From: a virus
DNA length: 21,271 nucleotides
Direction: 5' to 3' (one strand)
Virus record (IMG/VR): IMGVR_UViG_3300027631_000159
Location: 1 to 21,271 of that record
Of this stretch, positions 2,473-21,271 are shown piece by piece (the first letter of the stretch is position 1; the number at the start of each line of letters is the position of its first letter). Both the position numbers and the translations under genes were made by a program. Below the pieces are notes generated by a model. It did not search any database. It had not been told where the DNA came from and saw nothing but the letters and a program-made list of their open reading frames with translations.

Positions 2473-4869
2473 CTACTTATTGTGCACAAGCATGCCATTT
2501 ACAAAGAACCAGTCGTTTGGTTCGCATGACAATTGATAAACGTTGACAGATTGGTCAACTAGGAACTCTATTTTATCTACTAGTGTTTCTCCTATTTGCC
2601 CTTGGGAATCAATATGAATTATTGATTCGCCAACTTCAACATAATAAGCTTCTTTGATCTTATATTCTCCTGATAAAGTTTTAACAAAGACTGGTTGAGT
2701 ATAAGTCATTCTTGTATCTACATTTTCATTAAAATACAAAATATCTGATTCTTGAGTTTCAACAATATCTGTAATTGTTGTTTCAACAAATTCGCCTACT
2801 GAAAAATCAGAAGATGCCCAAGTAGAGAACTGGTATGAATCAGGTGTTAAAGGGTCAATTTGATTAATCACAATAGATTTGATCTTATCTCCGACCTGTA
2901 AGAACTTGGCTGGCACTTGACCGTCCATAGTGTCTACAAGAGTGTTCTCTTCTACGCAAGGAGGTCCAAACCAAGGAATGTAAATAAAGCTTGGGGGTGC
3001 AAAGAATCCTGGTGGAGCAAAGAATCCTGGTGGAGAGAAGAACCCTGGTGGAGCAAAGAATCCTGGAGGTGAGAAGAACCCTGGAGGAGCAAAAAAACTT
3101 GGAGGTGCAAACGTTAGTGCTCCACCGCAACATTGCCAACCGTTAGGTACGCTATATGTAGTTGAGTTTCCGAGGTATTCGTATCCTAACTCAGTACATG
3201 TATAGGATGTTGGATTAGTATAGGTTCCAGGGCATGTTAGTAAAGGGGTAGGTGTTGGGGTTGGGGTAGGTGTTGGGGTTGGGGTAGGTGTTGGGGTTGG
3301 GGTAGGAGTTGGGGTTGGATCGCAAGCAGAATTTCCTGCATCTGCAAGGGCGGCTGCGTAAGTTGTTCTATAAACCGTTTTTGTGCTTTGTTGTCCGCTA
3401 GTTGTATATGTGTCTTCTGGTATACCTGTACTATTAGTTAGTGGGCCAGATGCACTTGGGCTTTGGCCATAAGTTCCACTAAAAGGATTACAGACTGAAG
3501 TTCCAGTGTAGTAGGTGTACTGGGTTGGTGGGGCAGTTGTTGGAGTTGGTGTTATTGTGGGATCGCAAGCAGAATTTCCTGCTGCAACAAGAGCCTCTGA
3601 ATATGTGGTTCTGTAAACTGTTTTTGTACTGAATGATCCATCAACTATATATGTATCTGTTGGTATTGTATTGTTTGAAGAAACAAGTGGGCCTGTGACT
3701 GATGGGTTTGCTGCATAAACTCCACTAAATGGATTACATCTAGAGGTTCCAGTGTAGTAGGAAACTCCTGCATTTGTTGTAAATTGTACTGTATTAGAGG
3801 TCCATGAAGTTTCAGTAAATCTATCTGCTGTTCCTGTAACTACAACCTTATATCTGTATGTTTCTCCAGCTGTTAGGAATGTTAATGGTATTGTGTTTGT
3901 TGATCCTGAACCAGAACCTGCTGTCATAGAGGATCCGTCTGGATTTACCCAATAAATTTCCCAGGCTGTTTGAGTTAAATTAGAATTAGTCCAGGATAGG
4001 GTGGCAGTAGATTGAAGTATATCAGAAACTCCGATTGCAACAGAAGGCTTAAATGGCTTCATATCTGGAATAACATGCTCTTTAAATGTTGGGCTTTCAA
4101 GTGGAGTGTTGTATAAAGATTGTGTATATGGATTATTTACATTTTGTGATGTAATATAAACTGTTAATTGTCCATCTGCTGAGCCAGTGTCTATGGATGT
4201 TGTATCATATGCAGTTCCATCAACTACAGTAGTAACATCTTTTTGGTTTTGTACTCCTGGTCCCACCCAATAAACTCTATACTGATCTGCACCTATTGGT
4301 TTTACCCATCTTAAATTGATGCGGCCATTCTGTGTAAGTGTGTGGTCTATATAAAATACATTTTGTGGCCTAACAACTTGATTTTGATCATCCGTTGAAA
4401 TTGAATCTATGCCATTTGTATAAACAGAAACTAAATTATTTCCATTAACATAAACAGGGTCAGATTCTCCAAATTCATTTATAGCAACTACCTTACATCT
4501 TAAAACATATCCGATCATCTGCTTATCAATATAAGAAGAGTTTTGATTGTCTCCAAAAGTTACCCAAGAAGATTCTAAATGCGCTCCGCTAAGTGCAAAT
4601 GGTGCTTTTTGCCATGTATATGTAAACGAGGTTGGCGAGTTTTCCCATGTGCCAACTCCTATAGAGATATATTGTCCAGCTTGTCTATTATTATTTTGCC
4701 ATGTAAATACTGGAGCTACTGTATTTTTTGGTACTGCTGCCCCAAATTTTTTCCATTGTGAGCCGTCATAAACATAAGATGCCTTTGAATCTTTCCAGGT
4801 GGAACCATCGTGGATTGATATTTTTTTGAAAGGTTTCCATGCGGAACCATCAAAAATGTTTAACGGCAT
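2473..4869 (-). CDS. Large repeat-rich tail protein with C-terminal Hint (intein-like) domain
   Basis: 798 residues. It starts with three DGSxWK repeats (residues ~7-42), then an Ig-like segment and two fibronectin-III-like segments (~50-370). Next are two tandem ~81-residue modules containing YYTGTSxCNPFSG and TKTVYRTTY, a tract of about a dozen Thr-Pro repeats, a short Cys-rich segment, and six or seven copies of FFxPPG. Residues 638-797 form a Hint domain: Cys638 with ENTLVDTMDG and VGDKI (blocks A/N2), TYTQPVFV (block B), and FFVNGMLVHN followed by one Lys (blocks F/G). The usual block B His (TxxH) is Gln here. With no C-extein, the domain could only release or anchor the upstream protein, not splice. 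AAGGGG precedes the ATG. The gene lies in the tail operon just upstream of the glycosyltransferase. A surface-exposed fibre or adhesin role is inferred. Confidence 0.8.
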   Translation of the reverse strand: MPLNIFDGSAWKPFKKISIHDGSTWKDSKASYVYDGSQWKKFGAAVPKNTVAPVFTWQNNNRQAGQYISIGVGTWENSPTSFTYTWQKAPFALSGAHLESSWVTFGDNQNSSYIDKQMIGYVLRCKVVAINEFGESDPVYVNGNNLVSVYTNGIDSISTDDQNQVVRPQNVFYIDHTLTQNGRINLRWVKPIGADQYRVYWVGPGVQNQKDVTTVVDGTAYDTTSIDTGSADGQLTVYITSQNVNNPYTQSLYNTPLESPTFKEHVIPDMKPFKPSVAIGVSDILQSTATLSWTNSNLTQTAWEIYWVNPDGSSMTAGSGSGSTNTIPLTFLTAGETYRYKVVVTGTADRFTETSWTSNTVQFTTNAGVSYYTGTSRCNPFSGVYAANPSVTGPLVSSNNTIPTDTYIVDGSFSTKTVYRTTYSEALVAAGNSACDPTITPTPTTAPPTQYTYYTGTSVCNPFSGTYGQSPSASGPLTNSTGIPEDTYTTSGQQSTKTVYRTTYAAALADAGNSACDPTPTPTPTPTPTPTPTPTPTPTPTPLLTCPGTYTNPTSYTCTELGYEYLGNSTTYSVPNGWQCCGGALTFAPPSFFAPPGFFSPPGFFAPPGFFSPPGFFAPPGFFAPPSFIYIPWFGPPCVEENTLVDTMDGQVPAKFLQVGDKIKSIVINQIDPLTPDSYQFSTWASSDFSVGEFVETTITDIVETQESDILYFNENVDTRMTYTQPVFVKTLSGEYKIKEAYYVEVGESIIHIDSQGQIGETLVDKIEFLVDQSVNVYQLSCEPNDWFFVNGMLVHNK
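2988..3112 (-). repeat. 18-bp coding repeats (FFxPPG)
   Basis: Six to seven in-frame copies of an 18-bp unit encode FFAPPG or FFSPPG, directly N-terminal to the Hint domain. Copies differ at silent sites and in an Ala/Ser alternation, so this is not a very recent expansion. An aromatic, proline-rich hexapeptide array could form an extended or sticky linker. Confidence 0.85.
3244..3319 (-). repeat. Thr-Pro (TP) dipeptide repeat tract, G-rich on the plus strand
   Basis: About twelve in-frame Thr-Pro codon pairs. The plus strand reads as alternating GGTGTTGGGG and TTGGGGTA units, with many G3-4 tracts. Such 6-bp repeats change length by slippage and the G tracts could form a quadruplex on the template strand. 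Confidence 0.85.
3318..3760 (-). repeat. Tandem duplicated 81-codon module
   Basis: The block GATCGCAAGCAGAATTTCC begins at 3318 and again at 3561, a period of 243 bp. Both copies encode a Cys-containing module with YYTGTSxCNPFSG, TKTVYRTTY and GNSACDP. The copies have diverged in between, and a short Thr-Pro/Ala linker joins them. Confidence 0.85.
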
Positions 4870-7118: not shown

Positions 7119-8090
7119 TTATCCTACTACTACTACTCTGTATTCCCCGATTGTCGGAGCAACAGCAAAAGCGATGCTGACATTGTTTTCATCTACTCTT
7201 GCAACATCTGCTTCAACTTGTGCAAATGGTGATGCTGCCTGATAAATTTGAACGGTTACGTCAGTAGTTGCTAGTTTATGATTTACTGTATATGATGTTG
7301 CAGATGTTGATAGTGTTGTAGCAAACTTTCTTGCTATTGCATGATAGTCTGTTCCATTATTTGTTAATGACCATACATCTGATGTCTCATTCCATAGTAT
7401 TTCAACGTCTGTCAGGGTTCCGCGTTCTACAAGAATGCCTGCATCTGTAGTTGGTGTTCCTGCAAATCCGCTATTAAGCTTTACCTTATTATCTTCAATG
7501 TTAATCTGTGTTGTATTTACAGAATTAACAGTTCCAATAACATTTAGGTTTCCGCCTACCTGCAAATTGCCAGTGATCTCTACGTTGTCTGGAAGACCAA
7601 TAGTTACTGCTGCATTGTGTCCACTATTTGGAGAAACAGTAACTTCATTTGCTGTTCCAACAATAGTTGCTACATAGTCTCCTGTTGTCTGAGAATCTAG
7701 TGGAATAACCAGGTTGGCTTCGCTTGCTCCAGTTAATCTACCTTGCTGATCTACTGTAAATGTTGGTACTTTTGTAATTGAACCATAAGTTCCAGCTGTT
7801 ACTGCAGTATCATTTAATTTTATTGTATGTGTTCCCGCTACGTCGTTATATGTGGCAGTTAATCCTGTGCCAGATACTACTGTGGAGCTAATTACATCTT
7901 GAATTACTTCTGTAGAACCAGATGCTGGTACCCACTCTGTCGAGTTGTAGAAGTAAAGTGTATTTGTTCCAGTGTCAAAGTAAATTTGACCTGCTACTGG
8001 ATTAGATGGGGCGGACCCTAAGTTTTGAATTCGAGCATTGAGTAACTCATTCTTGTTGAGATCAATACTAACTAAATATTTTTTTGCCAT
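7119..8090 (-). CDS. Tail fibre / tail spike-like structural protein
   Basis: 323 residues. The N-terminal domain has LNARIQNLGSAPSNP then AGQIYFDTGTNTLYFYN and EWVPA, a common phage tail-fibre start. The middle (VTAGTYGSITKVPTFTVDQQ, LQVGGNLNVIGTVNS) looks like a beta-helical or repeated shaft of the type found in many tail fibres. The last ~70 residues (SYTVNHKLATTDVTVQIY...) form a beta-sandwich module that is similar in layout to the C-terminus of the 8104-8544 product (LHNLGYNPNVTVKSS). GGGAG precedes the ATG at 8 nt. No catalytic residues are recognised, so this is more likely adhesive than enzymatic. Confidence 0.75.
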   Translation of the reverse strand: MAKKYLVSIDLNKNELLNARIQNLGSAPSNPVAGQIYFDTGTNTLYFYNSTEWVPASGSTEVIQDVISSTVVSGTGLTATYNDVAGTHTIKLNDTAVTAGTYGSITKVPTFTVDQQGRLTGASEANLVIPLDSQTTGDYVATIVGTANEVTVSPNSGHNAAVTIGLPDNVEITGNLQVGGNLNVIGTVNSVNTTQINIEDNKVKLNSGFAGTPTTDAGILVERGTLTDVEILWNETSDVWSLTNNGTDYHAIARKFATTLSTSATSYTVNHKLATTDVTVQIYQAASPFAQVEADVARVDENNVSIAFAVAPTIGEYRVVVVG

Positions 8091-16504: not shown

Positions 16505-16520
16505 TGTGGCGCATATCACA
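16505..16520. promoter_or_regulatory. CRP/GlxR-like palindrome
   Basis: TGTGG-CGCATA-TCACA, one mismatch from TGTGA-N6-TCACA. It lies 49 bp before the promoter at 16569. Confidence 0.5.
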
Positions 16521-16568: not shown

Positions 16569-16590
16569 TGTCAGTGCCCCTTGCTATGAT
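16569..16590 (+). promoter_or_regulatory. RecA-NDp (PafBC-type) promoter, copy 1
   Basis: TGTCAGTG, 8 nt, TATGAT. It fits the known TGTCRGTG-N8-TAnnnT pattern exactly. It drives the gene at 16641; CGACACGCC (16542-16550) lies just upstream. Confidence 0.7.
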
Positions 16591-16640
16591 TAAGGTATAA
16601 AGAAAGTAAGAAAGTCTTACTAAGAAAGGTTAGGTCTAAA

Positions 16641-16808
16641 ATGACTAACAGAATTTGGGAAAGTCGTAACGACTACCTAGTAGAGTCAGACGCTAAGCGT
16701 CTTGGCTATGTATCCTGCTCAGCAGGTTGCGGTAGAGTAACCGCATACTCCCTATGCGTAATGTGTGGCGGTAACTACGCCGAGCATAACCTAGTAGGTG
16801 TGAGGTAA
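16641..16808 (+). CDS. 55-residue zinc-ribbon-like protein
   Basis: Cys are arranged CSAGC ... CVMC, a four-Cys set suited to one zinc ion, after an N-terminal segment (MTNRIWESRNDYLVESDAKRL). AGAAAGGTTAGG lies upstream of the ATG. It is alone between two RecA-NDp-like promoters, and its stop codon is inside the TGTGA-N6-TCACA palindrome of the next module. Function is unknown. Confidence 0.65.
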   Translation: MTNRIWESRNDYLVESDAKRLGYVSCSAGCGRVTAYSLCVMCGGNYAEHNLVGVR

Positions 16809-16815
16809 CTCACAC
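16798..16815 (+). promoter_or_regulatory. Hairpin and CRP/GlxR-like palindrome
   Basis: GTGTGAG (16798-16804) and CTCACAC (16809-16815) flank 4 nt. The same bases include TGTGA-GGTAAC-TCACA (16799-16814), a full match to the CRP/GlxR consensus. It could serve as an operator, a terminator-like RNA hairpin, or both. Confidence 0.55.
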
Positions 16816-16843
16816 TAACGCCTAACGGCGTGTCGGTGGTAAA

Positions 16844-16865
16844 TGTCAGCCCTATCGGCTACAAT
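16844..16865 (+). promoter_or_regulatory. RecA-NDp (PafBC-type) promoter, copy 2
   Basis: TGTCAGCC, 8 nt, TACAAT. GGCGTGTCG lies 8 bp upstream (16827-16835). It precedes a ~95-nt leader with duplicated micro-frames and then the operon from 16968 to 17884. Confidence 0.65.
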
Positions 16866-16890
16866 TCCACTATAACAACTAAATAAGGGT

Positions 16891-16942
16891 ATGAGCCTAG
16901 CAAATAATCCGTAAGGTGAGCCTAGCGAATAAGACCCCCTAA
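16891..16942 (+). other. Duplicated leader micro-frames (MSLAN...)
   Basis: ATG at 16891 opens a 7-codon frame (MSLANNP) and GTG at 16916 opens an 8-codon frame (MSLANKTP). The DNA is a tandem repeat of GAGCCTAGC(A/G)AATAA. Both end with TAA before the main gene at 16968. They may be a leader-peptide device, or the repeat may be an RNA or protein binding site. Confidence 0.35.
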
Positions 16943-16967
16943 CAATTACTAACGAAAGAAGAAATAA

Positions 16968-17153
16968 ATGTCATACATATACAACACACGCACTAACAGC
17001 GTATCTAAATGGGAAACTATCCAAGAAGATGTCGCAGACCAATACTCCTACCTAGATGAAGAGGTAGATGTAGAAGATGAAGATTTAGAAGATGTAGAAC
17101 TAACAGATGAGCAAGTAGATGCACTACTAGCAGATATGGAATGGGTGGCGTAA
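16968..17153 (+). CDS. Acidic 61-residue protein
   Basis: The first 20 residues are neutral or basic (SYIYNTRTNSVSKW). The rest is very acidic (DEEVDVEDEDLEDVELTDEQ), like DNA-mimic or charge-decoy proteins, though no homology is recognised. It follows AACGAAAGAAG upstream of the ATG. It is the first gene of a seven-gene micro-operon; the next gene begins directly at its stop. Confidence 0.7.
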   Translation: MSYIYNTRTNSVSKWETIQEDVADQYSYLDEEVDVEDEDLEDVELTDEQVDALLADMEWVA

Positions 17154-17276
17154 GTGGGTTATGTAAAGGCTTTCCTAATGGATAACGAGGGAGCGGGTTG
17201 GGTTGATTTGTCAGACCTACCCGATACAATAAAACTAGATATAGAAATCGCACTACTACAAGAAGGAGCACTATAA
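17154..17276 (+). CDS. 40-residue micro-protein (GTG start)
   Basis: The frame begins with GTG directly after the preceding stop and ends directly before the next ATG; an internal ATG at 17178 is an alternative start (32 residues). The sequence is mildly acidic (DLSDLPDTIKLDIEIALLQEG). Coupling on both sides supports translation. Function is unknown. Confidence 0.5.
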   Translation: MGYVKAFLMDNEGAGWVDLSDLPDTIKLDIEIALLQEGAL

Positions 17277-17426
17277 ATGACTATCACTTACTCAATATGG
17301 GACGGCGCACAACTACTAGGCGTTGATTTCAAGGCAACTAGCGCAGATGAAATGAATAAGGTCGTAGCAGACCTAATGAAAGTTTCTCGTAATGTCGTAG
17401 CACATATGCGAAAGGTTGAAATGTAA
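17277..17426 (+). CDS. 49-residue hypothetical protein
   Basis: Begins MTITYSIWDGAQLLGVDF and continues with a helical second half (ADEMNKVVADLMKVS). GAAGGAG sits about 7-9 nt upstream of the ATG. The stop overlaps the next ATG (TAATG). Function is unknown. Confidence 0.65.
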   Translation: MTITYSIWDGAQLLGVDFKATSADEMNKVVADLMKVSRNVVAHMRKVEM

Positions 17427-17581
17427 TGATACCTACAGGATTTGAGTTATCTATAACTAACGAATACGGATTTGAGTTTGATAGTTTCTTAGGGGCTATC
17501 TACTTACCTTGGCACACTATTATTATCACCGCCCTAGCACTAATCGCTTATAAGATTTATAAGAGAAAGAAGAATAAGTAA
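17426..17581 (+). CDS. 51-residue single-pass membrane protein
   Basis: Residues ~28-44 (TIIITALALIAYKIY) form one membrane helix. A basic end (KRKKNK) follows, so the N-terminus is probably outside and the C-terminus inside by the positive-inside rule. It overlaps genes on both sides by one base (TAATG). It could be a small accessory to host-membrane takeover, but no family is recognised. Confidence 0.65.
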   Translation: MIPTGFELSITNEYGFEFDSFLGAIYLPWHTIIITALALIAYKIYKRKKNK

Positions 17582-17694
17582 TGACTACTAATCGCCTACT
17601 AACTACCGCCGTCCAATTACTACTAGCGGGCGTTACTATCCCGCTACTAATCGCCGTAATCAAAGATATAAAAAATGGGGGACTAAATGAATAA
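17581..17694 (+). CDS. 37-residue membrane micro-protein
   Basis: MTTNRLLTTAVQLLL then AGVTIPLLIAVIKDIK give one hydrophobic helix. Most Leu codons are CTA. It overlaps the previous gene by one base and the next by 8 bp. A TM pair with the preceding gene is possible. Function is unknown. Confidence 0.6.
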   Translation: MTTNRLLTTAVQLLLAGVTIPLLIAVIKDIKNGGLNE

Positions 17695-17884
17695 ATCACA
17701 ATTAGAGAAAGACTTAGAAATAAAAGAAAGCTTTATAGATTTACTAAATGATATTTATCCTACTGTAAAAATCGGTTACTCTACATTCACACCCGCCGAA
17801 ATTCTAGAGTGTTGCGATCCCGTAGCGTTTGCGATTGGATTAGTGGAGCACGAGGATTATTTAGCAGAATTAGAAAATGAATAA
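17687..17884 (+). CDS. 65-residue hypothetical protein
   Basis: An acidic helical protein (LEKDLEIKESFIDLLNDIYP, TPAEILECCDPVAFAIGLVEHEDYL). It is the last gene of the micro-operon started at 16968. Its start overlaps the previous gene. It is followed by the first DnaA-box control region. Function is unknown. Confidence 0.65.
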   Translation: MNKSQLEKDLEIKESFIDLLNDIYPTVKIGYSTFTPAEILECCDPVAFAIGLVEHEDYLAELENE

Positions 17885-17900
17885 ATAAATAACGGCGTGT

Positions 17901-17923
17901 CGGCTTGACAAATCGGCAAGCCG
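17901..17923 (+). terminator. Hairpin at end of the micro-operon
   Basis: CGGCTTG (17901-17907) pairs with CAAGCCG (17917-17923) over 7 bp, 9-nt loop. No U-run follows. TTGACA lies in the loop area. A matching but shorter hairpin is at 20380-20394. Confidence 0.4.
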
Positions 17924-17940
17924 CCCGCATATGTATGGGG

Positions 17941-17970
17941 TTATCCACAGGGTTAAGAGAGTTATCCACA
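17941..17970 (+). promoter_or_regulatory. Pair of DnaA boxes, copy 1
   Basis: TTATCCACA at 17941-17949 and 17962-17970, same orientation, 21 bp apart (two helical turns). They lie between GGCGTGTCG (17894-17902) and CGACACGCC (17990-17998). Perfect matches to the DnaA consensus imply DnaA binding, for control of early genes or for replication. Confidence 0.65.
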
Positions 17971-18007
17971 ACCCCTGGAATTTGCAGCACGACACGCCCG
18001 AGATCTT

Positions 18008-18023
18008 TGTGATGTTTATCACA
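18008..18023. promoter_or_regulatory. CRP/GlxR-like palindrome
   Basis: TGTGA-TGTTTA-TCACA, full match to TGTGA-N6-TCACA, 49 bp before the promoter at 18072. Confidence 0.6.
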
Positions 18024-18071
18024 ACACCCACGCTCCACATATTGAGACAAACTCTTGCAAAATTAACACTT

Positions 18072-18093
18072 TGTCAGTCCTATCCGCTATAAT
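18072..18093 (+). promoter_or_regulatory. RecA-NDp (PafBC-type) promoter, copy 3
   Basis: TGTCAGTC, 8 nt, TATAAT. The leader has AACGAAAGG at 18109-18117 and the ATG at 18125. Confidence 0.7.
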
Positions 18094-18124
18094 GTCTACT
18101 ATAACAACAACGAAAGGAAGTCAA

Positions 18125-18256
18125 ATGAATCTAGATGAATTCAAGGCTCATGTTACAGAAACACGCAAGCAATCTAAAATCGAGGCGATGTCAGTCCTCT
18201 CTGCTACAATTACCAAATCAACAACAACGAAAGAAGGTGCCACTAATGGCAACTAA
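18125..18256 (+). CDS. 43-residue hypothetical protein
   Basis: Starts at the ATG at 18125, after AACGAAAGGAAG. N-terminal half MNLDEFKAHVTETRKQS is a probable helix; the C-terminal half (MSVLSATITKSTTTKEG) is encoded by the next promoter copy and its leader. A TTG upstream at 18071 extends the frame but lies inside the promoter, so it is rejected. It overlaps the next gene by 11 bp. It may be a relic cut short by promoter duplication. Function is unknown. Confidence 0.5.
   Translation: MNLDEFKAHVTETRKQSKIEAMSVLSATITKSTTTKEGATNGN
18189..18210 (+). promoter_or_regulatory. RecA-NDp (PafBC-type) promoter, copy 4 (inside a gene)
   Basis: TGTCAGTC, 8 nt, TACAAT, followed by AACGAAAG (18226-18233) and the ATG at 18246. 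It lies within the 18125-18256 frame and lacks the CRP-like and GGCGTGTCG elements seen before the others. Confidence 0.6.
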
Positions 18257-18452
18257 ACTATACACAATCGAAAACTTGCTAATCGGCAAGAATTACCGCT
18301 CAAACTCTCGCCACTTTTCAGGTGAGATTATTTCTGCAACTGCTCGCCCTGAAATTTGGTATGGCGAAAAAACTGAAGCGTTTTTAATCGAAGTTAGAAC
18401 TGGTGGCTTGCGAAATAAATTCGCAACAATCGCAGTAAAGGTTGGTGAATAA
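18246..18452 (+). CDS. 68-residue hypothetical phage protein
   Basis: Starts MATKLYTIENLLIGKNYRSN and has an alternating strand pattern (GEIISATARPEIW, EAFLIEVRTGG, ATIAVKVGE), suggesting a small beta barrel. AGAAGGTG upstream supports this start over an in-frame one at 18135. It starts a chain of six close or overlapping genes to 19095. Function is unknown. Confidence 0.65.
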   Translation: MATKLYTIENLLIGKNYRSNSRHFSGEIISATARPEIWYGEKTEAFLIEVRTGGLRNKFATIAVKVGE

Positions 18453-18596
18453 ATGGGAATGGTAAAAGATAGCCTTGACGGGATTTTTCTTTGCGATAAT
18501 TGCGACACTCTCGCAACTGTATGGCAAAAGGGAAACACAATTGAAATCACACAATGCAAATGCGTAACACTAGATTGGGAGAGCGACAATGTATAA
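18453..18596 (+). CDS. 47-residue zinc-ribbon-like protein
   Basis: Begins directly after the previous stop. Cys are arranged CDNC and CKC, a likely zinc-binding set, with short strands between. Ends 8 bp inside the next gene. Function is unknown. Confidence 0.6.
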   Translation: MGMVKDSLDGIFLCDNCDTLATVWQKGNTIEITQCKCVTLDWESDNV

Positions 18597-18798
18597 AATA
18601 ACTTTATCTTATGACGGAAATGCACCACACTGGCAACAAGACTACGCAAGCGAATTTGATGCGTGGAAAGATTTCTTTGCATTTACTGATTGGGGATTTG
18701 CTAACGAATTCTCAACTGTAAATATTTACAATTCAGAAATGAAATGCTTTACTAAACATTTTTATCGTGAGGAAAGAAAGGTCGTAACTGTAAAATGA
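18589..18798 (+). CDS. 69-residue aromatic-rich hypothetical protein
   Basis: Rich in Trp, Phe and Tyr (APHWQQDYASEFDAWKDFFAFTDWGFANEF), with strands at both ends. The overall pattern looks like small actinophage proteins of unknown role. Overlaps both neighbours (ATGA type with the next). Confidence 0.65.
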   Translation: MYKITLSYDGNAPHWQQDYASEFDAWKDFFAFTDWGFANEFSTVNIYNSEMKCFTKHFYREERKVVTVK

Positions 18799-18989
18799 CA
18801 ATGACACGCAAGCACTTCGAGGCAATTGCTGAAATCTTAAATTATAATTCAGGTAAAACTCACCCTGCTGTTTTTTCTAAAATGGTTTTAGACTTTGCGG
18901 AATTGTGTGCAAATGAAAATCCTAATTTCAATGTAACTAAATTCTATGAAGCGAGTAACTATGTCATTCCAAAACTCTCTACGAGATAA
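18795..18989 (+). CDS. 64-residue helical hypothetical protein
   Basis: Begins MTMTRKHFEAIAEILN, with FSKMVLDFAELCANENPNFN and KFYEASNYV following. The pattern 'RKHFEAIAEIL...FAE.C..NPNF...KF..A' occurs in small phage proteins of unknown function. Start overlaps the previous stop by 4 bp. A small basic gene overlaps its end in another frame. Confidence 0.7.
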   Translation: MTMTRKHFEAIAEILNYNSGKTHPAVFSKMVLDFAELCANENPNFNVTKFYEASNYVIPKLSTR

Positions 18990-19095
18990 AGTAAAACGCA
19001 TTCAGGAATTGCGTCGCAGTAATGCGGCGCAACCTGTTCGCAATAAAAAAACTTACACACGCAAGATCAAACATAAAAATAAAAATGCAGAGTAA
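18961..19095 (+). CDS. 44-residue very basic micro-protein
   Basis: Starts at the ATG at 18961 inside the previous gene and ends at 19095. Rich in Lys and Arg (RDKVKRIQELRRS, KKTYTRKIKHKNK), so RNA or DNA binding is plausible. Overlap of 29 bp with the gene before supports coupling, though no clear Shine-Dalgarno is seen. Function is unknown. Confidence 0.5.
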   Translation: MSFQNSLRDKVKRIQELRRSNAAQPVRNKKTYTRKIKHKNKNAE

Positions 19096-19149
19096 TGCAT
19101 AAGTATGCAGCTGGCCCGCATATGTGCGGGGTCGGGCGTGTCGTTATGA

Positions 19150-19165
19150 TGTGATCTAAATCACC
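19150..19165. promoter_or_regulatory. CRP/GlxR-like palindrome
   Basis: TGTGA-TCTAAA-TCACC, one mismatch to consensus, 28 bp before the promoter at 19193. GGCGTGTCG (19135-19143) and GCGTGTCG (19176-19183) flank it. Confidence 0.5.
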
Positions 19166-19192
19166 CTGGAAATTTGCGTGTCGATTAGGAAA

Positions 19193-19214
19193 TGTCAGTC
19201 TGTTCTGTTATAAT
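19193..19214 (+). promoter_or_regulatory. RecA-NDp (PafBC-type) promoter, copy 5
   Basis: TGTCAGTC, 8 nt, TATAAT. The leader has AACGAAAG (19228-19235) before the ATG at 19245. Confidence 0.7.
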
Positions 19215-19244
19215 TCTCTTAACTACCAACGAAAGAGGTTCCTC

Positions 19245-19454
19245 ATGGAATTATTTACCGTCGCTTGCTTGAACTATGAAATTTGTGGCGCTCAAGAAAC
19301 TTTTGATTCTGTTGAAGAGTATGAAATTTATGGAGATGACTGGACTTGTGGCGAATGCTACGATTCAGAAGAAATGGAATTCTATGAACTAGGTGGCTGG
19401 GCGGATTCCGACGCCCTTGCTTCCGCTGGCCATGGCATGGATGAGGATTACTAA
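19245..19454 (+). CDS. 69-residue acidic Cys-containing protein
   Basis: Cys occur as ACLNYEICG and TCGECYD, which could bind zinc, in a very acidic context (EEYEIYGDDW, DSEEMEFYE). It directly follows promoter copy 5 and AACGAAAGAGG. It stops one base before the upper GP88 start. Function is unknown. Confidence 0.65.
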   Translation: MELFTVACLNYEICGAQETFDSVEEYEIYGDDWTCGECYDSEEMEFYELGGWADSDALASAGHGMDEDY

Positions 19455-19455
19455 T

Positions 19456-20205
19456 ATGTCAGACGTCACCGCTATAATTACCCCTATGAAATTAAAACGT
19501 TCTAATGACCGCAAGGTGGCTAACCTTGTCACAAAAAATGGCAAGCAAGCAGCAATTGCGAACACGTTCGGATTACCTGCAGGCAAGGCCTACTCGTGCC
19601 CTGGCGCCACTAGTATTTGCGAAAGCGTGTGCTATGCGGGAAAGCTTGAAAAGTTATTCCCTGGCGTAAAAACTAATCTGTTACACAATTGGGAATTGTT
19701 ACGCAATGCAGACAATGACACAATGGTGGCCCTATTAGAAGAAATGATTATTGATTTTGTTTCTGATTGTGATAAGAAGAGTGCTCCTAAGTTATTCCGT
19801 ATCCACTGGGACGGCGATTTCTTTAATGATATTTATACATATGCCTGGAAGACTGTTATCATGAACCACCCCGATATTCAATTTTGGGTTTACACACGTG
19901 TAAAGTCTGCAGCGCTTATTCTTAAGGATGTTGTTAATCTTTCACTGTATTATTCTACCGATGATGAGAATAAGGAAATAGCATTCGATTTAAAGAAGAA
20001 TTCTAAGGTCCGCCTTGCTTACCTAGGCAAGACATTCGCGGCCACCGAAGACACGATGAAAGAGTTAACGGGCAAGCCTGGCGCTAAGTGTCCCGAGAAT
20101 ATGAAATCAATTCCGCTTATCTCTAGCAATGGGTCCGCCTGTGTTTCTTGTGGTCTCTGTGTCTACGGTAAAGCAGACATTCGATTTTCTGCGAGTAAAA
20201 AATAA
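19456..20205 (+). CDS. GP88-family phage protein (Cys-rich, possible Fe-S protein)
   Basis: 249 residues from the ATG at 19456 or 239 from 19486. Pattern TFGLPAG, then SCPGATSICESVCYAGK, then RIHWDGDFF and FWVYTR fits the actinobacteriophage GP88 family (Pfam PF17338), of unknown function. Counting from 19486, Cys38, 45 and 49 form one cluster; Cys202, 219, 222 and 225 form a second (CVSCGLC). These suggest one or two Fe-S clusters; relation to radical SAM enzymes is conjecture, as no CxxxCxxC is present. The 19456 start is coupled to the previous gene (GAGG upstream). Promoter copy 6 lies between the two starts, and from it the 19486 ATG would be leaderless. Confidence 0.75.
   Translation: MSDVTAIITPMKLKRSNDRKVANLVTKNGKQAAIANTFGLPAGKAYSCPGATSICESVCYAGKLEKLFPGVKTNLLHNWELLRNADNDTMVALLEEMIIDFVSDCDKKSAPKLFRIHWDGDFFNDIYTYAWKTVIMNHPDIQFWVYTRVKSAALILKDVVNLSLYYSTDDENKEIAFDLKKNSKVRLAYLGKTFAATEDTMKELTGKPGAKCPENMKSIPLISSNGSACVSCGLCVYGKADIRFSASKK
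19457..19478 (+). promoter_or_regulatory. RecA-NDp (PafBC-type) promoter, copy 6, inside the GP88 start region
   Basis: TGTCAGAC, 8 nt, TATAAT, 7 nt, then ATG at 19486. It overlaps codons 1-8 of the longer GP88 frame. A transcript from here should begin at or next to the second ATG. Confidence 0.65.
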
Positions 20206-20357
20206 TGCATGATGTTATTGGATCCCTGATCGGAATTATATTAATCATGTTTTTATTATCACCAATTATTTTAACGGTGTACATGTTGTGGAGCTCTAAA
20301 ATAGATATCGATAACGACGGCCAGGATGATTTGCCTTATCGTTGGGAAAATAAATAG
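20205..20357 (+). CDS. 50-residue membrane protein with DxDxDG loop
   Basis: One strongly hydrophobic helix (SLIGIILIMFLLSPIILTVYML) is followed by DIDNDGQDDLPYRW, which resembles an EF-hand or Excalibur-type calcium loop. The ATG overlaps the GP88 stop (TAATG). It may sit next to GP88 in the membrane; no function is recognised. Confidence 0.65.
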   Translation: MHDVIGSLIGIILIMFLLSPIILTVYMLWSSKIDIDNDGQDDLPYRWENK

Positions 20358-20419
20358 GCTGGTACCCTATCGGCGTGTTCCCTTGACAAAAGGGGACCGC
20401 TGCCCCCATATGTGCGGGG

Positions 20420-20449
20420 TTATCCACAGGCTTACGGGAGTTATCCACA
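20420..20449 (+). promoter_or_regulatory. Pair of DnaA boxes, copy 2
   Basis: TTATCCACA at 20420-20428 and 20441-20449, same orientation, again exactly 21 bp apart. GGCGTGT (20372-20378) and CGACACGCC (20485-20493) flank the pair as in copy 1. Confidence 0.65.
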
Positions 20450-20462
20450 GACCCTGAAAATT

Positions 20463-20478
20463 TGTGAGAAATATCACA
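20463..20478. promoter_or_regulatory. CRP/GlxR-like palindrome
   Basis: TGTGA-GAAATA-TCACA, full consensus match, with TT and AA extending the symmetry. 33 bp before the promoter at 20511. Confidence 0.6.
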
Positions 20479-20510
20479 AAGCTCCGACACGCCGAGAATG
20501 GATTAGGTAA

Positions 20511-20532
20511 TGTCAGTGCCCTATGCTAAAAT
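20511..20532 (+). promoter_or_regulatory. RecA-NDp (PafBC-type) promoter, copy 7
   Basis: TGTCAGTG, 8 nt, TAAAAT. The leader has AACGAAAGG (20547-20555) before the ATG at 20562. Confidence 0.7.
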
Positions 20533-20561
20533 ACTCTTATCCAACCAACGAAAGGTAACAA

Positions 20562-20786
20562 ATGTCTAATCTAATGAAAGTTCCACACACAGTTGAGTTC
20601 GAGGCAGTAATTGACTTGGACAAGATTCCCGCTAACTTACTACCTGCGCTAATTGCACTTGACACTTATTCAGTTACAAAGATGTGCAAAGAAGCAACAC
20701 TACACGCACTTGGAATGTCAAATGTAATTCCACTTGCTAATGAAAATAACACTTGGGCTGAAGTAACAATTAAGGAAGGTAACTAA
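20562..20786 (+). CDS. 74-residue hypothetical protein
   Basis: Begins with a strand-rich part (VPHTVEFEAVIDLDKIP) and continues with a helix (TKMCKEATLHALGMS) and a final strand (WAEVTIKEG). AACGAAAGG precedes the ATG. Two bases separate it from the next gene. No family is recognised. Confidence 0.65.
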   Translation: MSNLMKVPHTVEFEAVIDLDKIPANLLPALIALDTYSVTKMCKEATLHALGMSNVIPLANENNTWAEVTIKEGN

Positions 20787-20788
20787 CA

Positions 20789-21058
20789 ATGGGAAATAAC
20801 ACTGCGCTAGATTTAGCAAGCGAGTTTGATTTAGAACAAGGTATTGCTTATCACTTACAAGGTAATCATTACCCGCCCGTTCCACTTTCTATGGTGAAGC
20901 CTTGCATCGATGCTATCGATGCTTGGTGGGAAGAAGATTCAGATAGACTAATTGAAATGCCTGAAGGCGTATCTTATCGTGGAGATAAGTTTGCACCTGC
21001 TCACGCAATAATTGACCAGCATCACCTACACGCTTGGCTGCAAGATACCGACTACTGA
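20789..21058 (+). CDS. 89-residue small actinophage-type protein
   Basis: Contains AYHLQGNHYPPVPLSMV and IDAWWEEDSDR, then EMPEGVSYRG and a His-rich end (DQHHLHAWL). The 'HL..NHYPPVP..mv..ci.AI' pattern recalls small proteins of actinobacteria and their phages, of unknown function; this rests on memory only. Follows the previous gene by 2 bp. A perfect hairpin lies just after its stop. Confidence 0.7.
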   Translation: MGNNTALDLASEFDLEQGIAYHLQGNHYPPVPLSMVKPCIDAIDAWWEEDSDRLIEMPEGVSYRGDKFAPAHAIIDQHHLHAWLQDTDY

Positions 21059-21070
21059 GATCAAAACCAG

Positions 21071-21092
21071 GCGTGTGAGATTACTCACACGC
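21071..21092 (+). promoter_or_regulatory. Hairpin and CRP/GlxR-like palindrome
   Basis: GCGTGTGAG (21071-21079) and CTCACACGC (21084-21092) pair over 9 bp around 4 nt. TGTGA-GATTAC-TCACA (21074-21089) is a full CRP/GlxR match, 38 bp before the promoter at 21127. It may also terminate the operon ending at 21058. Confidence 0.6.
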
Positions 21093-21126
21093 TTGGCATC
21101 TCAAATAATAAGATTGGGGTAGTAAA

Positions 21127-21148
21127 TGTCAGACCCCTTTGCTATAAT
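21127..21148 (+). promoter_or_regulatory. RecA-NDp (PafBC-type) promoter, copy 8
   Basis: TGTCAGAC, 8 nt, TATAAT. The leader has AAGAAAGGAAG before the ATG at 21174. Confidence 0.7.
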
Positions 21149-21173: not shown

Positions 21174-21271
21174 ATGACAGTAAATGGATACACTTACAAG
21201 GTTGGCGATTTATTCACCACCCTAAAGTCAAAAAAGACAGGAGTAATCAAAGAGATTATTCCTAACGCATC
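21174..21271 (+). CDS. Partial small phage protein (C-terminus beyond window)
   Basis: The first 32 codons (beginning MTVNGYTYKVGDLFTT, with KSKKTGVIKEIIPN) are open to the right edge. KVGDLFTT then TGVIKEI suggest a small SH3-like or KOW-like beta fold. GAAAGGAAG precedes the ATG and promoter copy 8 lies just upstream. Function is unknown. Confidence 0.6.
   Translation, partial: MTVNGYTYKVGDLFTTLKSKKTGVIKEIIPNA

Follow-up and report, generated by a model that had tools for sequence, protein, structure and literature searches.

Many phages take over transcription by factors of their own. At the middle promoters of T4, a MotA box near -30 replaces the -35 element beside a strong extended -10, and one temporal class of genes is served; class I CRP promoters carry TGTGAN6TCACA upstream at helically phased distances. 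The PafBC motif of Mycobacterium tuberculosis reads TGTCGG or TGTCAG, 10 nucleotides (nt), TA, 3 nt and T (PMC8151990), and PafBC is activated by single-stranded DNA (ssDNA) and redirects RNA polymerase with sigma-A through sigma adaptation (PMC11804915). Sites of this architecture were analyzed here in a virus record of 21,271 bases (IMG/VR IMGVR_UViG_3300027631_000159, 38% GC), the whole of which is called the window. Judged from sequence, the nine sites found are probably promoters of early phage genes, recognized by the sigma-A RNA polymerase of the host together with its PafBC, and the phage family probably borrows this damage-response activator of the host to take over the cell. No such phage promoters were reported in the part of the literature on PafBC, promoters and phage that was covered, as judged by titles and abstract openings.

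The pattern TGTCAG-N10-TANAAT occurred eight times in the window, always on the plus strand and between 16844 and 21148 (0.03 copies expected from dinucleotide shuffles), and its reverse did not occur there. With a copy at 16569 that ends in TATGAT, the total was nine, and the 10-nt spacing from TGTCAG to the -10 was invariant. A preliminary description of this DNA had listed eight sites with rigid spacing: the eight coordinates were exact (seven TGTCAG-N10-TANAAT, and TATGAT in the copy at 16569) and the rigidity held, but an exact copy at 17209 had been overlooked, as had phased CRP-type palindromes and DnaA-box pairs. All nine sites satisfied TGTCRG, 10 nt, TANNNT, the core of the RecA-NDp promoters to which they had been likened. 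The likeness was incomplete in the flank, as the full TGTCRGTG was present only at 16569 and 20511 (2/9); the remaining sites continued with TC, AC or CC after TGTCAG.

By sequence pattern, the putative PafBC-type promoters were placed on the plus strand at 16569..16590 (TGTCAGTG-N8-TATGAT, ahead of an open reading frame (ORF) at 16641-16808), 16844..16865 (ahead of ORF 16968-17153, with a 102-nt leader), 17209..17230 (within ORF 17154-17276, 46 nt from the ATG at 17277), 18072..18093 (-10 of TATAAT, ahead of the ATG at 18125), 18189..18210 (overlapping the short ORF 18125-18256, ahead of the ATG at 18246), 19193..19214 (ahead of ORF 19245-19454), 19457..19478 (ahead of a GP88-family gene), 20511..20532 (TGTCAGTG-N8-TAAAAT, ahead of ORF 20562-20786) and 21127..21148 (ahead of an ORF at 21174 that extends past the window end). 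A start codon followed every copy at 7 to 102 nt. Sites 17209, 18189 and 19457 overlapped upstream ORFs, so not all lie in intergenic leaders. The site at 19457 is only 7 nt ahead of the GP88 ATG, and the GP88 transcript is therefore predicted to be leaderless. The GP88 gene (19486..20205, plus strand; PF17338, E 3.5e-52; phrog_1392) was the sole early gene of the window with a strong family match; most early proteins were of unknown family.

IMG/VR contains hundreds of relatives of this phage. By protein comparison, with no tree built, the nearest known phages were Streptomyces phages of the Stanwilliamsviridae, both for RNR (65%) and for GP88 (57% at best). A motif scan of related phages, which had been suggested earlier, gave 735 copies of TGTCAG-N10-TANAAT in 160 related viral loci, whereas each of the other spacings between 4 and 23 gave 0-9; the 735 copies are not independent, because many of the 160 loci are closely related. 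Twelve relatives of 97-116 kb had 9-17 matches each to TGTCRG-N10-TANNAT, nearly all in one block and on one strand. Conservation of the box was also assessed on 623 extended -10-like elements of the related loci, picked solely on a ribosome binding site (RBS) and ATG behind them. TGTCRG was all-or-none in this set (416 exact, 5 with one mismatch, 202 with two or more), and TTGAC stood upstream of one of the box promoters vs. 30 of the boxless ones. Across the whole phage family a rigid TGTCRG lies 10 nt before the -10, in one strand-consistent region, and is usually followed by an RBS and the start of a gene.

In an alignment anchored solely on TGTCRG and the -10, the family sites had T in the next position (68%), then G or C, and again G or C. 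TG directly followed TGTCRG at about 54% of them (330/609), and the commonest nonamer was TGTCAGTGG. Core and spacing equal the published motif and the family consensus regains the following TG, which agrees with the earlier proposal of early-regulon promoters of PafBC/RecA-NDp architecture. Box positions 7-9 read TGG/TGC or xCC in the phages, with either form at homologous promoters. Separate roles for the TGG and CC variants were considered and rejected, as homologous promoters hold either and palindromes accompany both. The consensus can serve as a DNA signature for the group: IMG/VR was scanned twice for TGTCRGTGG-N4-TGN-TATAAT, and this pattern alone retrieved at least 194 viral loci, 183 of those listed sharing at least three proteins with the family. 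Several sites each were also present in a few phages that share little with the family at the protein level (seven in locus L514).

WhiB, which marks phages of Actinobacteria, is encoded by 11 of the 12 near-complete relatives. Host assignment through a motif scan of genome contigs was set aside, since it gave mostly chance matches across phyla (four Actinobacteria). A plausible host is a streamlined order whose genomes span 1.0-2.2 Mb and which belongs to the same class as Nocardioides; by size and GC it is probably Ca. Nanopelagicales. All 61 of its genomes compared had WYL genes, in most listed cases two adjoining ones, and in one genome the pair matched PafB and PafC chains whose structures have been solved (E 5e-28 to 9e-36). 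TGTCRGTG-N8-TANNNT was present in 99 of 101 genomes of the order (roughly three matches in each, about one at chance level), and in the whole class the motif far exceeded its reversed control. Within the order the box precedes a LysM gene (yneA/chiZ-like) that adjoins lexA, with nrdR behind, and also DUF6504-dnaE2, dnaN, radA and others; several of these boxes have the start codon 6-8 nt away (leaderless). A CRP-family gene was found in 15 of 15 candidate hosts.

Phage and host boxes were compared on equal terms, as TGTCRGTG-N8-TANNNT sites, with a host list of 93 sequences that includes chance matches. TANAAT was present at 83% of phage sites vs. 0% of host sites (0/93), and TG ahead of the -10 at 61% vs. 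6%; phage boxes permit CC, where host boxes are mostly GG. The extended -10, TGn-TATAAT, is thus by sequence a new feature of the phage promoters that host PafBC promoters lack. The box as a generic host promoter was rejected: none of the 93 host sites had TANAAT, and 800 kb of candidate-host DNA contained few TTGAC-TANAAT or extended -10 promoters.

Six window sites had a TGTGAN6TCACA palindrome, with no mismatch or one, 35-56 bp upstream. Pattern matches were at 16505..16520 and 19150..19165 (one mismatch each) and at 16799..16814, 18008..18023, 20463..20478 and 21074..21089 (exact). In the relatives, the palindrome (0-1 mismatch) accompanied 550 of 912 sites, with distance peaks at 26, 36, 46 and 56 and a period of about 10.4 bp. 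After grouping by homologous downstream DNA, the modes of 41 clusters gave a Rayleigh z of about 15 for helical phasing. Distances one turn apart occurred inside single clusters (that of 16569 had mainly 46 and 56), and the cluster of 20511 was an exception, favoring 41, half a turn out of phase. A CRP-type palindrome in helical phase with the box is, on this pattern, a second new feature. Two perfect DnaA boxes two turns apart (TTATCCACA, 21 bp start to start) lie upstream of two promoters, at 17941..17970 and 20420..20449 on the plus strand, and 21 bp was also the commonest DnaA-box pair spacing upstream of some sites in relatives. Two other repeats were noted near the promoters: a hairpin sequence like GCCCGCATATGTGCGGGGT in three intergenic copies (17923-17941, 19114-19132, 20402-20420), and GGCGTGTCGG / CCGACACGCC blocks in both orientations (16542, 16826, 17893, 17990, 19135, 19177, 20484).

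Compared with described systems, the sites resemble mycobacterial RecA-NDp/PafBC promoters (PMC8151990, PMC11804915) in TGTCRG, 10 nt, TANNNT, in a non-palindromic, directional box that is itself the promoter, and in TGTCRGTG(G) as the commonest full form. Unlike these, the phage has many copies in one early region, with a near-consensus extended -10 and the phased palindrome upstream, and the role of PafBC is read from sequence. T4 middle promoters likewise serve one temporal class by pairing a strong extended -10 with a factor site near -30; the T4 factor, MotA, is phage-made, whereas no phage factor turned up for the present box, which is that of a host stress regulon. TGTGAN6TCACA lies upstream as in class I CRP promoters and its spacing shifts by whole helical turns, but the centers, at about -64, -74 and -84 (conventional -10 numbering), are 2-3 bp off the textbook phase. 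The Stanwilliamsviridae Streptomyces phages (Evy, Paradiddles, Mandalore) share related RNR and GP88 and short early genes, which in some are duplicated at the genome ends. Unlike the present family, these three phages had no TGTCRG clusters, and their early promoters read TTGAC-N17/18-TANNNT. The box was thus not taken to be inherited from Streptomyces-phage relatives; either this lineage acquired the system or theirs lost it.

In the proposed mechanism PafBC, ssDNA-activated in mycobacteria, would bind the box and take over the -35 contact (sigma adaptation). If it does, early phage transcription would rise with ssDNA, as it would in cells with prior damage, during phage replication or while host DNA is broken down. 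Unlike host PafBC promoters, those of the phage have a near-consensus, extended -10 (TGn-TATAAT), so they may need only a little activated PafBC to fire; with a stress box joined to so strong an element, activation by the host may boost their output without being required for it. A second dimeric factor, possibly of the CRP family, would bind the upstream palindrome on a fixed helical face and add activation. None of the features seen in the analysis points to lysogeny.

The choice of host PafBC as the reader is suggested by the invariant spacing, the all-or-none TGTCRG, the identity of core and spacing with the published motif and the TG/TGG regained unasked. It is also consistent with the PafBC pair and repair-gene boxes of the candidate order, with WhiB in the phages and with the phasing of the palindromes. 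Among the 12 near-complete relatives, no WYL domain (E up to 10), sigma-70 region 2 or CRP-type helix-turn-helix was detected, and a phage-encoded PafBC mimic, a phage sigma factor and a phage CRP were rejected on these grounds. Where a host activator or a phage mimic of it had been suggested, the former is favored by the PafBC pair and box in the plausible host order and the latter lost its WYL candidate. Several points weigh against reading by host PafBC. Seven of the nine window sites are without TG after TGTCAG, PafBC binding and promoter expression are both predictions from sequence comparison, and with so strong an extended -10 PafBC may not be needed. The host link is tentative: the phages have 38% GC vs. 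39-52% in sampled host stretches, and although the five best matches to the tRNA-Asp (84-86%) were genomes of 1.4-1.9 Mb, four in the candidate order, that match is only suggestive. The perfect palindrome was not above control in candidate hosts, and because of this the CRP part is weak and the promoters were not classed as CRP promoters.

An activator made by the phage, WhiB or an unrecognized small DNA-binding protein, might read TGTCAG instead, in which case the likeness to PafBC would be mimicry or coincidence and the promoters would be delayed-early. WhiB proteins act with sigma-A, and both the prevalence of WhiB in the relatives and the many early proteins of unknown family leave room for such a factor, as does the CC tolerated at phage sites where host boxes have mostly GG. 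We consider it unlikely, since the host box is matched in core, in spacing and by TGG, the most frequent flank, neither a WYL protein nor a sigma factor was found, the box also occurs in phages with little protein similarity to the family, and the early block would be transcribed before any phage protein is abundant. The high frequencies of TANAAT and of TG before the -10 at phage boxes, compared with host boxes, would equally suit constitutive sigma-A extended -10 promoters in which TGTCAG sets basal strength or survives as a relic, while PafBC contributes nothing in practice. Such an account is improbable: an all-or-none TGTCRG is unexpected of a dispensable element, upstream TTGAC is excluded from box promoters, and the Streptomyces relatives manage on TTGAC promoters.

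With 9-17 boxes per phage genome, presumably multiplied by replication, vs. about three matches per candidate host genome, the boxes might also act mainly as a PafBC sink that diverts PafBC from host repair genes, promoter activity being secondary. This is very unlikely, as every window copy has a -10 and a nearby start codon behind it and a sink needs neither. Promoter use with host PafBC is therefore preferred, and a wider form of it is offered tentatively, as one that may well prove wrong: this actinophage lineage would have rebuilt its early regulon around PafBC (ssDNA/damage), a CRP-type dimer, DnaA pairs and a strengthened -10, with ssDNA from its own replication feeding forward and no sigma factor or PafBC-like activator of its own.

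A widespread virus group of Actinobacteria, known mostly from metagenomes, appears to model its early promoters on the host DNA-damage regulon. If so, the host alarm becomes a phage start signal, altering PafBC might confer resistance, and the study of sigma adaptation would gain hundreds of natural promoters of PafBC type whose cores are stronger.

Further observations were made in the related and compared loci. TTGACA or TTGACT stood directly ahead of TGTCAG, giving a -35 plus box, in L387 (5657, 6278) and L460 (5890, 9139, 11228), two loci whose proteins show little or no similarity to those of the phage family. Mycobacterium phage XianYue (L172) had a single TGTCAG-N10-TATGGT at 7591, some 95 nt upstream of its immunity repressor gene, which may be chance. 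A second recurrent promoter type of the related loci, boxless and like ACTATTTACAAATTGCAAATAGTTGATATA, contained the inverted repeat CTATTT/AAATAG, possibly an operator. A tRNA-Ile of a kind rarely seen in bacteria (anticodon TAT) recurred in the phage family (L091, L010, L012 and many relatives). In the window itself, positions 2473-4869 (minus strand) encode a long protein with proline-threonine repeats, the end of which gave the impression of a Hint/intein-type domain.

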